NCBI GenBank assembly: GCA_002067235.1
Contig: MVQP01000026.1
Location: 1-32,557, forward strand
DNA length: 32,557 nt
Direction of reading: 5' to 3'
From: Syntrophorhabdus sp. PtaB.Bin047
GTDB lineage: Bacteria; Desulfobacterota; Syntrophorhabdia; Syntrophorhabdales; Syntrophorhabdaceae
Shown: piece by piece, positions 10,047 through 20,192 of the stretch
Layout: each line of letters opens with the position of its first letter
How positions within the stretch are numbered: the stretch's first letter is position 1
Position numbers and translations under genes: made by a program
The notes under the pieces: generated by a model
Told to the model about the DNA's origin: nothing
Seen by the model: the letters and a program-made list of their open reading frames with translations, nothing else
Databases searched by the model: none

Positions 10047-11498
10047 ATGAAGGGAGAAAGAAGGATGCTCGAGAAGCTTGATGAGAACCGTTATGTCGTC
10101 AGGAGATCCGGGGCGATGCGGGTTGACGGCATCATCTATATCGATGAGGAGTTGCTCGGATATCTCGGCACTGATGAAAGTATAGAACAGGTTCGGAATG
10201 TGGCCACCCTTCCCGGGATCGTCAGGGCGTCCCTTGCCGTGCCCGATATCCATTGGGGCTACGGCTTTCCCATAGGCGGGGTGGCGGCTTTCGACGTCGA
10301 TGAAGGGGTCATTTCTCCCGGCGGCGTCGGCTACGACATCAACTGAGGGGTCCGTCTCCTGCGCTCCGTGCTGAGCGCGAAGGACGTGAAGGACAGACTG
10401 CCGGACATCGTCGAGGGTCTATTTCGGAATGTTCCGAGCGGCGTCGGTTCCCGCCGCAAGGACCTGAGGTTATCTCACGGCGAGCTCAGGGGAGTGCTCG
10501 AGAAAGGGGCGCGGTGGGCAATAGCGAACGGTTTCGGCACCTCCTCTGATCTGGAAAACATCGAGAATCAGGGCTGTCTCGACGAGGCCGATCCGGACGC
10601 CGTTTCCGACAGGGCGTACGAACGGGGAAAGGACCAGCTCGGAACCGTCGGCAGCGGGAACCATTTCGTCGAAGTGGGCTATGTCGCGCAGATATTCGAC
10701 GAGGAGGCAGCACGGGCCTTCGGCCTTACCCGTGGCCAAGCGACCATCATGATCCATACCGGGTCGCGCGGTCTCGGCTACCAGGTCTGCGATGAATCCA
10801 TACGGCAGATGCTGTCCGCCGCCGGGAAATACAGTATAGCCCTCGTCGACAGGCAGCTGTGCTGCGCCCCGCTCAACTCCCCGGAGGGACGGCGCTATTT
10901 CTCGGCCATGGCCGCTGCCGCCAATTACGCCTTCGCAAACCGTCAGCTCATAACGCACTGGGTCCGTGAGACGTTCGAAGAGGTATTCGCCGCAAGCGAC
11001 TCTTCCCTGGGTCTCGGACTCGTCTACGACGTGTGTCACAACATCGCCAAGAAGGAACTGCACAGGGTGGAAGGCAAGGATATGATGCTCTGTGTTCACC
11101 GGAAAGGGGCCACGAGGGCCTTTGCGCCGCACCACCGCCTCGTCCCCGACAGGTACCGGGAGGTGGGGCAGCCCGTTCTTGTGCCCGGCGACATGGGCAG
11201 GGCCTCCTATGTCCTCGCGGGAACACAGCGCGCCATGGACGAGACCTTTGGGAGCACCTGCCACGGCGCGGGCAGGATGATGAGCAGGAGTGCGGCGCTG
11301 AGGTCCGCCAGGGGGCGATCTATCATCAGGGAAATGGAAGAGCGCGGTGTCTACGTGAGGGCGGCCAGCAAGGCAACGCTCGCAGAGGAGATGCCCGAGG
11401 CCTACAAGGACGTATCGAAGGTCGTTGAGGTCGTTCACAGGGCAGGCATCTCGCGGCTGGTGGCAAAGATCATCCCGATGGGGTCGATAAAAGGGTAA
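10047..11498 (+). CDS. rtcB: RNA-splicing ligase RtcB with in-frame TGA at the catalytic cysteine (predicted selenoprotein)
   Basis: RtcB joins 2',3'-cyclic phosphate or 3'-phosphate RNA ends to 5'-OH ends using GTP and Mn2+. An ORF caller breaks it at TGA 10344-10346, but the frame continues uninterrupted to 11498, giving 483 residues, normal for the family. The break reads [16 protein letters not shown], where RtcBs have DINCGVR and the Cys bridges two metal ions. All other motifs are intact: [18 protein letters not shown], the His in [23 protein letters not shown] (guanylylated His, codon 406) and a C-terminal [14 protein letters not shown]-like hairpin follows the TGA. I therefore translate codon 100 as selenocysteine. 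The start may instead be ATG 10065, which has GGGAG upstream. A nonsense mutation is the alternative but fits the data less well. Confidence 0.9.
10360..10379 (+). promoter_or_regulatory. Putative bacterial SECIS hairpin in rtcB
   Basis: GCGCTC (10361-10366) pairs with GAGCGC (10373-10378), plus a U-G closing pair, around the loop CGTGCT. The stem's apical loop begins 20 nt after the TGA and contains a G in its first two positions. Bacterial SECIS elements are coding-region hairpins just downstream of the UGA with a G at the loop start, so position and shape fit. Folding was done by eye. Confidence 0.6.
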
Positions 11499-16775: not shown

Positions 16776-18233
16776 ATGGGCGAGACCGCGTATTACAGTA
16801 CCAACAACCCGGCGGAACGCGTCAATTTCGAGACCGCGCTGCTCACCGGGATGGCGTCTAACTACGGGTTGTACATGATAGCCCGAAAGGACGTTCCGGT
16901 CCTGTCCCGGGAGCGGATAGAAGCCATGAAGGGCATGACCTACGCCGGGATAGCCCATGAGGTCCTGGAGCCTTTCCTCGGGCGGGAGGTACCCCCGGCA
17001 CGTCTGAGATCGCTTCTCGATGACGCCTACGACACCCGGAAGATCCCGACCGTGGTCCAGAGGGTCACGGGGCAGACGTACATAATGTGGCTCACCCGGG
17101 GACCGACATATTCCTTCAAGGACTACGCCGCCCGGTTCTTCGGCAGGATGCTCAATCACTTCCTCGGGCAGAGGGGTCTGCGAAGGGTCGTCATCGTTGC
17201 CACGAGTGGAGACACCGGGGGAGCTGTGGCCGATGCCCTCCTTGGCCTCAAGAACATCGACAACATCGTTTTCTATCCCAAAGGGTCCATCAGCGAGGGT
17301 CAGCGGCGGCAGATGACCACCCTCGGCGACAACGTCCACGCCTTCGAAGTGAACGGCGATTTCGATGTCTGCCAGGCGCTTGCCAAGAACATCCTGGGCG
17401 ACACGTCTTTTGCCCTCGAGCTCTTCGGTGACCGGGACCGTTTCACCTCCGCAAATTCCATCAGCGTCGGCAGGCTCCTTCCGCAGGCGGTCTACCCCTT
17501 TTACGCATATTCGCAGATGGAAACGTCCTTGGAGCCCTTCATTGCCAGCATCCCCTCGGGAAACTTCGGTAACATGATGGGGACCGTCATAGCGAGGCAG
17601 ATGGGGCTTCCCGTCGAAAAGATCATCTGCGGCGTCAACGAGAACACGGAGTTTCCCGATTTTCTCGCCACGGGGACATATACCGTACGGCCCTCCATCA
17701 AATCGCCGTCATCGGCCATGATCGTCTCCCATCCGAGCAACCTGGCGCGCCTCATCGACTTTTACGGTGGTCACATGTTCGACGAGCGGGACCCGTCAAC
17801 GGGCAACGTGACGAGACCGGGCATCATCGACCGGATGCCCGACATGCAAGCCATGCGGCGGGACATCGTCTCCCTCGGGGTCAGCAATCCCCGTCATTTC
17901 GAGACGATGAAGGATGTTTACGAGCGTTACGGCATCATCCTCGATCCCCACGGTGCCGTGGGCTGGGCCGTACTTGAAGAGTTTGTCGGGGCAAGACACG
18001 ACCGGCCAGCCGTGATCTATGAGACCGCCGACCCGGGGAAGTTCCCCGACGACGTGCACAGGGCCATAGGGGTGGTCCCCGGATTGCCCCCGGGCATGAA
18101 GGAACAGGCAGGCCTCCCCGAGCGCATCTACAGCATCGAAGCGGAACCGGAACAGACTCCAGCGGGACTCAAGCTTTCACCGGCACAGGTCAACGAGGCA
18201 AAGCAGAGGATCCGAAGAATATACAAACCGTGA
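16776..18233 (+). CDS. thrC: Threonine synthase
   Basis: ThrC converts O-phosphohomoserine to threonine with pyridoxal phosphate. It is 485 residues, the long ThrC class. The N-terminal YYSTNNPAERVNFETALLTG is characteristic, and the PLP-binding lysine is in PTYSFKDYAAR (Lys115). Phosphate-binding ATSGDTGGAVADAL, TSANSISVGRLLPQ and IPSGNFGNMMGTV follow, all standard. The start has a promoter 9 nt upstream and no Shine-Dalgarno sequence. The stop codon overlaps the GTG start of the downstream rhodanese (GTGA), which suggests coupled translation. Identification is certain. Confidence 0.97.
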   Translation: MGETAYYSTNNPAERVNFETALLTGMASNYGLYMIARKDVPVLSRERIEAMKGMTYAGIAHEVLEPFLGREVPPARLRSLLDDAYDTRKIPTVVQRVTGQTYIMWLTRGPTYSFKDYAARFFGRMLNHFLGQRGLRRVVIVATSGDTGGAVADALLGLKNIDNIVFYPKGSISEGQRRQMTTLGDNVHAFEVNGDFDVCQALAKNILGDTSFALELFGDRDRFTSANSISVGRLLPQAVYPFYAYSQMETSLEPFIASIPSGNFGNMMGTVIARQMGLPVEKIICGVNENTEFPDFLATGTYTVRPSIKSPSSAMIVSHPSNLARLIDFYGGHMFDERDPSTGNVTRPGIIDRMPDMQAMRRDIVSLGVSNPRHFETMKDVYERYGIILDPHGAVGWAVLEEFVGARHDRPAVIYETADPGKFPDDVHRAIGVVPGLPPGMKEQAGLPERIYSIEAEPEQTPAGLKLSPAQVNEAKQRIRRIYKP

Positions 18234-18694
18234 ACCGCGGTGTTTCCCTGCGTCGCCATATGGCCCGCCATCATCCACCAACCGCCTCAAAGCATGCCCC
18301 ACCCCTCCTCGCTCTCCTGGCGCTGGCCGTCCTCAACCTCTTTCCGGCCGGTTGTTTCTTCGCGGGCAGTATCGGAGACATAGATGTCAGGAAGCTCGAA
18401 GGTTTGATGGAAAGAGAGAAGCAACTCCTCATCGTCGACAACCGGAGCACCCTCGAATATGCGTCAGGCCATATACCGGGCGCCATGCACATTCCTCAGG
18501 AGGAGTTCTACAGGCTGGCGTCTTTTCTTCCCCCTGAGAAGGACACGCCCATCGTCTTCTACTGCCGGGGATACGGTTGAGCCCCCAGTTTCAAGGCCGC
18601 GGTCGCGGCAAGGAACGCGGGCTACACCAACGTCATGACCTTTCTGGCCGGATATCCCGCCTGGGTCAGGAAGGGCAACCCGGTGGAACGCTGA
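18230..18694 (+). CDS. Rhodanese-like lipoprotein with in-frame TGA (predicted selenoprotein)
   Basis: A 154-residue single-domain rhodanese when the TGA at 18578-18580 is read through. The N-terminus is a signal with a lipobox-like LFPAGC, so it is probably anchored facing the periplasm. The domain runs from KLEGLMEREKQLLIVDNRS through YASGHIPGAMHIP to the active loop FYCRGYG-TGA-APSFKAA, then AGYTNVMTFLAGYPAW, the usual family ending. Related anaerobe proteins have Cys-x4-Cys-x2-Ser here, so the TGA replaces the second Cys (codon 117). A tight hairpin lies 20 nt downstream. It starts on a GTG overlapping the thrC stop. A Cys-Sec redox or sulfur/selenium-transfer role is inferred; a truncated pseudogene is the less likely reading. 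Confidence 0.85.
18596..18609 (+). promoter_or_regulatory. Putative bacterial SECIS hairpin in the rhodanese gene
   Basis: GCCGC (18596-18600) pairs perfectly with GCGGC (18605-18609) around the loop GGTC. The loop begins 20 nt after the TGA, the same distance as in rtcB. The GGUC loop start matches the classic E. coli fdhF SECIS loop. Lower pairing between GCCC (18581-18584) and GGGC (18619-18622) could extend the structure. Folded by eye only. Confidence 0.65.
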
Positions 18695-18737: not shown

Positions 18738-18782
18738 TTGACATACTGCTCCCCTTGCCATACAATAAACGAAAATAATTTC
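18738..18782 (+). promoter_or_regulatory. zur-znu operon promoter with possible Zur operator
   Basis: TTGACA (18738-18743), 17 nt, TACAAT (18761-18766) is a near-ideal sigma70 promoter. At the expected transcription start lies GAAAATAATTTC (18771-18782), an AT-rich imperfect palindrome of the kind Fur-family proteins bind. Autoregulation by the first gene product is inferred. Confidence 0.65.
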
Positions 18783-18789
18783 TATTTAG

Positions 18790-19230
18790 ATGGCCATGAA
18801 GGATCATAGCGACATTCTGAAAGAACTTGAACTTAAGGCAACACCGAAGAGGCTTGCCATTCTCGACATCCTGTCCGGCGCGTCGACCTATCTGAGTCCC
18901 GACGAGGTGTGGACGACGATGAAAGAGCGTTTCCGCGCCATCGGTCTTCCCACTGTCTATCGCAACCTGGAAGAATTGGCGGGCGGAGGGGTCATCTCCA
19001 AGGTGATCCATCCGGACCGCAAGCTCTATTACTTCTTCTGCGGCAACAGGGAACATCATCATCATTTCGTATGCACCTCCTGCAGGAGGGTGGACGATCT
19101 CAGTTTCTGCGCCTTTGAGGAGATCGAGAAGGAGGTCTCGCAGACCCTGAATGCGACCGTATCATCCCACATCATGCAGGTCTTCGGTATCTGCAGTGAT
19201 TGTTCGGCGGGCAAAGGAGGGCAACGATGA
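18790..19230 (+). CDS. zur: Fur-family metalloregulator, probable Zur
   Basis: A 146-residue Fur-superfamily repressor. The winged helix covers about residues 10-85, with LKATPKRLAILDIL and LPTVYRNLEELAGGGVI as recognition elements. The metal-binding C-domain has EHHHHFVCTSCRRV and the final CSDC, giving the paired CxxC structural zinc site. The gene heads znuACB and overlaps znuA by ATGA, so zinc-responsive repression of its own operon is the natural inference. An ATG at 18796 is an alternative start; neither has a ribosome site. Fur or PerR would share the fold; the operon context favours Zur. Confidence 0.88.
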   Translation: MAMKDHSDILKELELKATPKRLAILDILSGASTYLSPDEVWTTMKERFRAIGLPTVYRNLEELAGGGVISKVIHPDRKLYYFFCGNREHHHHFVCTSCRRVDDLSFCAFEEIEKEVSQTLNATVSSHIMQVFGICSDCSAGKGGQR

Positions 19231-20192
19231 AGACACTGCGGCCGGCCATGGTTGTTCTTCTTGCGCTGCTTCTCCTTGCAGCCGCTTCCTGCGGACCGGA
19301 CAGGAAGGATGTCTCCGACGGCCACGGGAGGATCACCGTCGTCACCACCCTGTTTCCTCTCTATGATTTCGCCAGGGCCGTAGCCGGCGACAGGGCCGTG
19401 GTGACCCTCATCCTGCCACCGGGGGTAGAGGCCCACGCCTTTGAACCGAAGCCCGGTGATATGGCGCGTGTCAATTCCGCACAGCTTTTCCTCTACACCG
19501 GCAGGTATATGGAGCCCTGGTCGGAAAAACTCCTCAAGGGGATCGCCAATAAGACCCTCATCATCGTCGATACGAGCCGGGGCATCAAACTGATGAGAAG
19601 TGGTGAAGAGCACCATGAGGGCAGTCAGAAGGACCATGGCAACGGGCACCACGACCACGGCGCTTACGATCCCCACATCTGGCTGGATCTCGGGAACGCG
19701 ACGAAAATGGTCGATACGATCACGGAGGGTCTGTGTGCCGCCGACCCTCAGGGAAGCGAACTTTTCCGCAAGAACGCGGCCGCTTACAGGGAACGGCTTT
19801 CCGCGCTCGACGCAAAGTTCCGCGAGACCCTGGGGACATGCGGAAAGAAGACCATCATCCACGGCGGCCATTTCGCTTTCGGGTATCTCGCGCACAGGTA
19901 TGGCCTCGAATACGTGAGCGCTTACGAAGGGTCTCCGAATGCCGAACCGACGGCGAGGAAGATAATCGCTCTCAAGAAGAAGATGGACGAGAACGGTATC
20001 CGTTACGTCTATTTCGAGGAACTGATCAATCCGAAGGTGTCCGAACTCCTCTCCAGGGAGACCGGGGCGACGCTCCTTTATCTCCATGGAGCTCACAATC
20101 TGACGAGGGACGAGTTCGAGAAAGGCGCCACCTTCATCACTCTCATGGAGAACAACCTCGAAAACCTCAGGAAGGGCCTCGAATGCAGATGA
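19227..20192 (+). CDS. znuA: Zinc ABC transporter substrate-binding lipoprotein ZnuA
   Basis: ZnuA captures Zn2+ outside the inner membrane and delivers it to ZnuBC. It is 321 residues with a signal peptide and lipobox LLAAASC, so it is lipid-anchored. The cluster A-I fold begins ITVVTTLFPLYDFARAV and has the first metal His in GVEAHAFEPKPGDM. A His/Asp-rich loop (about residues 128-152, HHEGSQKDHGNGHHDHG) precedes DPHIWLD; this loop distinguishes zinc from manganese binders. HGGHFAFGYLAHRYGL supplies a further His ligand. AAGGAGG lies 6 nt before the ATG, and the start overlaps the zur stop. Confidence 0.94.
   Translation: MKTLRPAMVVLLALLLLAAASCGPDRKDVSDGHGRITVVTTLFPLYDFARAVAGDRAVVTLILPPGVEAHAFEPKPGDMARVNSAQLFLYTGRYMEPWSEKLLKGIANKTLIIVDTSRGIKLMRSGEEHHEGSQKDHGNGHHDHGAYDPHIWLDLGNATKMVDTITEGLCAADPQGSELFRKNAAAYRERLSALDAKFRETLGTCGKKTIIHGGHFAFGYLAHRYGLEYVSAYEGSPNAEPTARKIIALKKKMDENGIRYVYFEELINPKVSELLSRETGATLLYLHGAHNLTRDEFEKGATFITLMENNLENLRKGLECR

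Follow-up and report, generated by a model that had tools for sequence, protein, structure and literature searches.

A thrC-linked, apparently lipid-anchored rhodanese selenoprotein predicted in Syntrophorhabdus and related anaerobes

Introduction

Catalogues have included rhodanese-like selenoproteins since 2005, and the accessible parts of two reviews (PMC13188914, PMC9312934) distinguish several arrangements of selenocysteine (Sec, U) among them: form 1 with UxxS, forms 2 and 4 with UxxG, form 3 with CxU, and TsoB with UxxxxU. Form 1 (PF00581, UxxS) is listed there as WP_010941598.1, credited to Zhang and Gladyshev 2005. A 2016 survey, in the portion available, lists a sulfurtransferase homologous to rhodanese-like protein, with the entries 24 and 25 in its row. 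Within the accessible text of the selenoprotein literature searched, no function is reported for rhodanese-like selenoproteins.

In this study, we analyzed a window of 32,557 nucleotides (contig MVQP01000026.1, assembly GCA_002067235.1) from Syntrophorhabdus sp. PtaB.Bin047. The window contains a rhodanese gene interrupted by an in-frame TGA at position 18578 (Table 1), and comparison of sequences indicates that this gene almost certainly encodes a selenoprotein in which the UGA specifies Sec.

Results and Discussion

Relation to described rhodanese selenoproteins

By motif description, the window protein resembles form 1, a rhodanese domain with Sec-x-x-Ser; the window sequence reads UAPS, and the Ser was found in 24/24 aligned sequences. 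Linkage to thrC is not reported for form 1 in the accessible parts of PMC13188914 and PMC9312934. The best NCBIfam match of the window domain was TsoB (NF045694, rhodanese/DsbD fusion-like) at 68.9 bits, which does not reach the cut-off of 805 bits for that family. Sec117 matches the second of the two Sec residues in UxxxxU; TsoB, however, carries Sec at the two positions and includes a DsbD-like membrane part, whereas the window protein has CxxxxU and the domain only. NF041203 (LYCAU/CxU, form 3) likewise describes a small rhodanese whose Sec lies close to the catalytic Cys, but this Sec is located at Cys+2 rather than at Cys+5, and the window protein (40 bits) did not reach its cut-off of 115 bits. 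Exported Cys-type FYCxGxxC rhodaneses of the same phylum (L053, L057, L054) have Cys in place of Sec at the same position; unlike the window protein, several of them are two-domain proteins, and no thrC was found in the flanks searched. Further CxxxxU Sec rhodaneses occur elsewhere in the phylum. A rhodanese of two domains, preceded by a lipoprotein-like leader (LMGC), was also observed (L112 1-1701; G346 C211:48800-50500); it contains two Sec, one per domain (FYCGGPTU and FYCGGYTU).

Given that rhodanese-like selenoproteins, UxxS included, are already catalogued, the window protein represents a new clade within an established kind, and as predicted here it adds an apparently lipid-anchored, thrC-linked clade fitting the form 1 motif. 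The first-pass annotation had stated that such selenoproteins were reported before, which is correct for several listed families; the thrC-linked, apparently lipid-anchored clade, which it had called less familiar, is a new addition.

Table 1. Features of the predicted rhodanese selenoprotein locus and its neighbors in the window
Feature	Position	Strand	Remarks
thrC (threonine synthase)	16776..18233	+	PF00291 + PF14821; conserved, directly upstream of rhodanese gene
Rhodanese-like selenoprotein gene (predicted)	18260..18694	+	likeliest start ATG 18260; GTG 18230 is open as well; TGA 18692-18694 is the stop
Signal peptide, hydrophobic core (predicted)	18260..18355	+	ends at conserved putative lipid-attachment Cys C42 (LFPAG-C; codon 18353-18355)
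Rhodanese domain PF00581	18392..18670	+	E 8.2e-18; rhodanese structures matched in a fold search
Cys112	18563..18565	+	invariant in aligned set; aligns with usual rhodanese catalytic Cys (6mxv, GlpE)
TGA, predicted to be read as Sec117	18578..18580	+	TGA in 25/26 orthologues of order, TGC (Cys) in one
Bacterial SECIS apical stem-loop (predicted)	18596..18609	+	stem 18596-18600 with 18605-18609; loop GGUC 18601-18604
Sigma-70-like promoter TTGACA-17-TACAAT, 11/12	18738..18766	+	consensus match only; between rhodanese gene and fur-znuA
fur-family regulator and znuA zinc-binding protein	18790..20192	+	downstream neighbors

The reading frame continues through a conserved TGA

If TGA is allowed to encode a residue, 18230-18694 translates into one rhodanese protein, and only one TGA lies within it. 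The residues surrounding this codon read ...FYC-RGYG-U-APSFKAAVAARNAGYTNVMTFLAGYPAWVRKGNPVER, the U being followed by APS, and the frame then ends at its own stop codon. The Pfam PF00581 match (residues 55-147, E 8e-18, 65.2 bits against a gathering score of 22.2) covers both sides of the TGA, bearing out the first-pass claim that the frame proceeds to a proper rhodanese C-terminus. The TGA had also been placed at the second Cys of a YC-x4-C-x2-S loop, and the resulting Cys-x4-Sec reading (C112, U117) was found to be right. The same annotation had begun the gene at GTG 18230, from which the residue numbers used here (C42, C112, U117) are counted. This start needs revision: in the closest relatives an ATG is located 24-25 nt past the thrC stop and aligns with 18260, and GTG 18230 has no counterpart there, so that translation probably starts at ATG 18260.

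A protein search of 60 related genomes recovered an orthologue with exactly one internal TGA in 11 relatives of the same genus and 13 other members of the order, with the TGA at the identical codon in every orthologue; within the genus, the in-frame TGA is present in 12/12 genomes. A profile search of 46 genomes of the order found the rhodanese orthologue in 26, 25 of which have the TGA and one of which (G422) has an open frame. In G422, the Sec codon is TGC (Cys), the locus order thrC-rhodanese-fur-znuA is kept, and the DNA retains an intact copy of the stem-loop described below (GGCTGC-GGTC-GCAGC) despite the Cys codon; this genome has selB. In contrast, G032 and G036, which belong to the same genus as G422, have TGA at this codon. 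As judged from the aligned genes, this is a natural Sec/Cys exchange within one genus and at one locus, and it provides an unusually clean pair for measuring the benefit of Sec in a rhodanese. Cys also occupies the Sec position in distant exported rhodaneses, and the expectation that homologues would have either Cys or Sec at this site was thereby confirmed. In a tree of rhodaneses, Sec and Cys forms were intermixed, with at least five changes between them, in an alignment of few columns and with a weak fork uniting the window clade. A scan of named genomes with a back-translated pattern yielded one Cys relative (an Anaeromyxobacter MAG); the pattern needed Cys codons and therefore missed TGA genes. 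Within the genus, median dN/dS values were low both ahead of the TGA (0.15) and beyond it (0.10).

A conserved stem-loop follows the TGA

A five-pair stem begins 15 nt past the TGA, and its GGUC loop, which resembles that of the E. coli fdhF SECIS, begins 20 nt past it. When 23 sequences were aligned, 115/115 cells of the stem were paired, 7 of them double-compensatory, against 14-78% for slid versions of the stem. One pair is C-G in 14 sequences, U-A in 7, and U-G in 2; another is G-C in 20 and G-U in 3. RNAalifold, used unaided, recovered the identical helix. Codon usage pointed in the same direction. The Ala codon seven past the TGA, the second Ala of the protein sequence AAVAA, is GCG in 24/24 sequences, compared with 37/157 Ala codons elsewhere in the same genes. 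Wherever Val is encoded in the stem region (22 sequences), its codon is GTC. The protein sequence therefore does not account for the conservation. The same-codon fraction over four codons also has its strongest peak in the gene at the stem (0.82, versus a median of 0.45). The folding energy of the window element alone gave a z-score of only -1.9, and Rfam yielded no significant match across the TGA region. From these covariation and codon data, the stem-loop is a predicted bacterial SECIS for UGA 18578.

These data bear directly on whether the TGA could simply terminate translation, or could stem from a sequencing error or a pseudogene, with a truncated rhodanese of 106-116 residues as the product. 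A TGA is a stop by default, and the assembly, as described below, is without a tRNA-Sec. This explanation nevertheless appears extremely improbable, given that the same TGA recurs in 25 genomes with TGC in one orthologue, that purifying selection and a conserved stem-loop are found past it, and that a protein ending at the TGA would lack the last part of the rhodanese fold. A well-supported selenoprotein is thus predicted in 25 genomes from a single anaerobic order, in which a standard annotator would end the gene at the TGA.

Sec-decoding genes

The presence of Sec-decoding genes in the genome, on which the first-pass prediction depended, was verified by the detection of selA (571 bits), selB (393 bits), and selD (371 bits). 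No tRNA-Sec was found in this genome assembly; it was found in 7/11 relatives of the same genus. In G002, DNA that flanks the tRNA-Sec aligns with the final 300 bases of contig C5 of the present assembly, which thus ends about 1.2 kb before the expected place of the tRNA; a break in the assembly is therefore the most likely reason for the gap. Among relatives with the TGA gene, no selB above the cut-off was found in three (G010, G015, and G029), which probably reflects gaps in draft genomes.

Several additional features of these loci were observed. The selD gene (L036 687-1598; G000 C94:687-1598) itself has one in-frame TGA, as in a Sec-containing selenophosphate synthetase, and adjoins a 389-aa rhodanese-domain frame, perhaps mnmH. 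The tRNA-Sec locus of the genus (L071-L074, L088) resembles a site of insertion or repeats: contigs of G003 and G008 stop immediately past tRNA-Sec, and G009 has a 68-base partial copy, 99% identical, about 40 kb away (C1:4522-4589). A second full-length selB is found in G007 (C119:15222-17111) and in G032 (C5:19533-21422); the former contig also has a tRNA-Sec (C119:4107-4199), and the latter has a tRNA-Sec-like match barely above the cut-off (C5:19400-19489).

Export leader and gene neighborhood

A hydrophobic leader ending in Cys, 74-78 residues ahead of Sec, is invariant in 25/25 sequences. Because Pro occupies position -3 in most of the genus, the strict lipobox pattern fails there, and the Prosite-like pattern was passed by 10/25. 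The protein is quite likely an exported, lipid-anchored rhodanese, as first proposed, on account of the invariant Cys after the leader; the lipobox itself is non-canonical.

The thrC gene lies directly upstream of the rhodanese gene in 22/25 genomes, the three exceptions (L021, L022, and L025) being members of another family of the order; the linkage, which the first-pass annotation had marked for checking, is thus conserved. In four relatives, the two genes share 4 nt, at the stop of thrC and the ATG of the rhodanese gene. From this arrangement, the rhodanese gene is probably co-transcribed with thrC, and the link may reflect co-transcription only. The promoter-like site between the rhodanese gene and fur-znuA suggests that fur-znuA forms a separate transcription unit. 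Assignment of the rhodanese gene to a fur-znuA unit was considered and rejected in view of that site and of the tight spacing to thrC. No sulfur-metabolism gene adjoins the rhodanese gene.

This neighborhood is relevant to another candidate function, in which the protein would handle selenium or metal oxyanions at the envelope, reducing or delivering selenite, for instance. Rhodaneses are able to carry perselenide, a rhodanese-like extH belongs to the selenite-linked ext cluster of Geobacter (PMC5877670), and a Fur-family regulator and znuA come next downstream. However, a promoter-like site precedes fur-znuA, the tight neighbor is thrC rather than a metal gene, and ExtH is a different protein of 49 kDa (PMC5877670). 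We therefore consider such a role unlikely.

Active-site pair and proposed chemistry

A structure model of modest quality (pLDDT 68, two sequences) supports a rhodanese fold in which a strand ends at the Cys and the following helix begins close to the Sec. In a profile alignment, Cys112 falls on the active-site Cys of 6mxv, with Sec in a loop two residues longer. An alignment with GlpE, to be taken only as a lead, likewise puts Cys112 on the catalytic Cys and Sec in the longer loop. In the TsoB-like L028, Sec occupies both positions of the pair (YUAGLAU). This suggests that the two loop positions act as a pair, and the retention of Cys at the Sec place in Cys relatives, together with both Sec in L028, favors a redox or persulfide pair.

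In the mechanism that we propose, UGA 18578 would be read as Sec by SelB and tRNA-Sec, directed by the stem-loop 15 nt downstream. The single-domain rhodanese would be exported via its signal peptide and probably lipid-anchored at its Cys, its setting being the reduced periplasm of an anaerobe. Recoding and anatomy of this kind are together quite likely, a judgment in which the chemistry is not included. As in other rhodaneses, Cys112 would take sulfane sulfur from thiosulfate, polysulfide, or persulfide, and Sec117, in the longer active-site loop, would attack the Cys112 persulfide or oxidised Cys112. A Cys-S-Se-Sec bond would form with release of sulfide, and Sec117 would then be re-reduced by an envelope thiol reductant. 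Such persulfide/polysulfide-type chemistry, with a Cys-Sec pair in a reductase-like rhodanese, is plausible, and we would place its probability just short of one half.

A selenoprotein with no part in sulfur handling is a possibility of some weight, though well short of an even chance. The protein would then be an envelope thiol/disulfide or peroxide-type redox protein built on the rhodanese fold, in which Cys112 and Sec117 cycle between selenol/thiol and selenenylsulfide. The CxxxxU(C) pair resembles dithiol redox centers, and in the TsoB-like L028 such a domain is combined with a membrane part like that of DsbD and an end resembling thioredoxin; on the other hand, Cys112 retains the rhodanese catalytic position, and the conserved neighbors in the order are thrC, fur, and znuA rather than redox genes (in a survey of window genes within 1.5 kb on each side). 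Returning to persulfide/polysulfide chemistry, its most specific version would make the protein a lineage-specific, thrC-coupled, lipid-anchored Sec-rhodanese acting as an envelope polysulfide/persulfide reductase, with at least one Sec-to-Cys switch (G422) that left a fossil SECIS; taken whole, this proposal is tentative and rather unlikely. In the accessible text of the literature searched, no assay of a Cys-Sec rhodanese as an envelope polysulfide/persulfide reductase was found.

An RtcB gene with an in-frame TGA

The window also contains an RtcB RNA ligase gene (10047-11498, + strand), in which an in-frame TGA (10344-10346) replaces the Cys of GVGYDIN-C-GVRLL, a metal ligand in known RtcB. 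RtcB is unmentioned in the accessible parts of the selenoprotein reviews PMC13188914 and PMC9312934. The TGA is kept in 8/9 full-length matches of the same genus and in several other genera, and the remaining matches have no internal stop.
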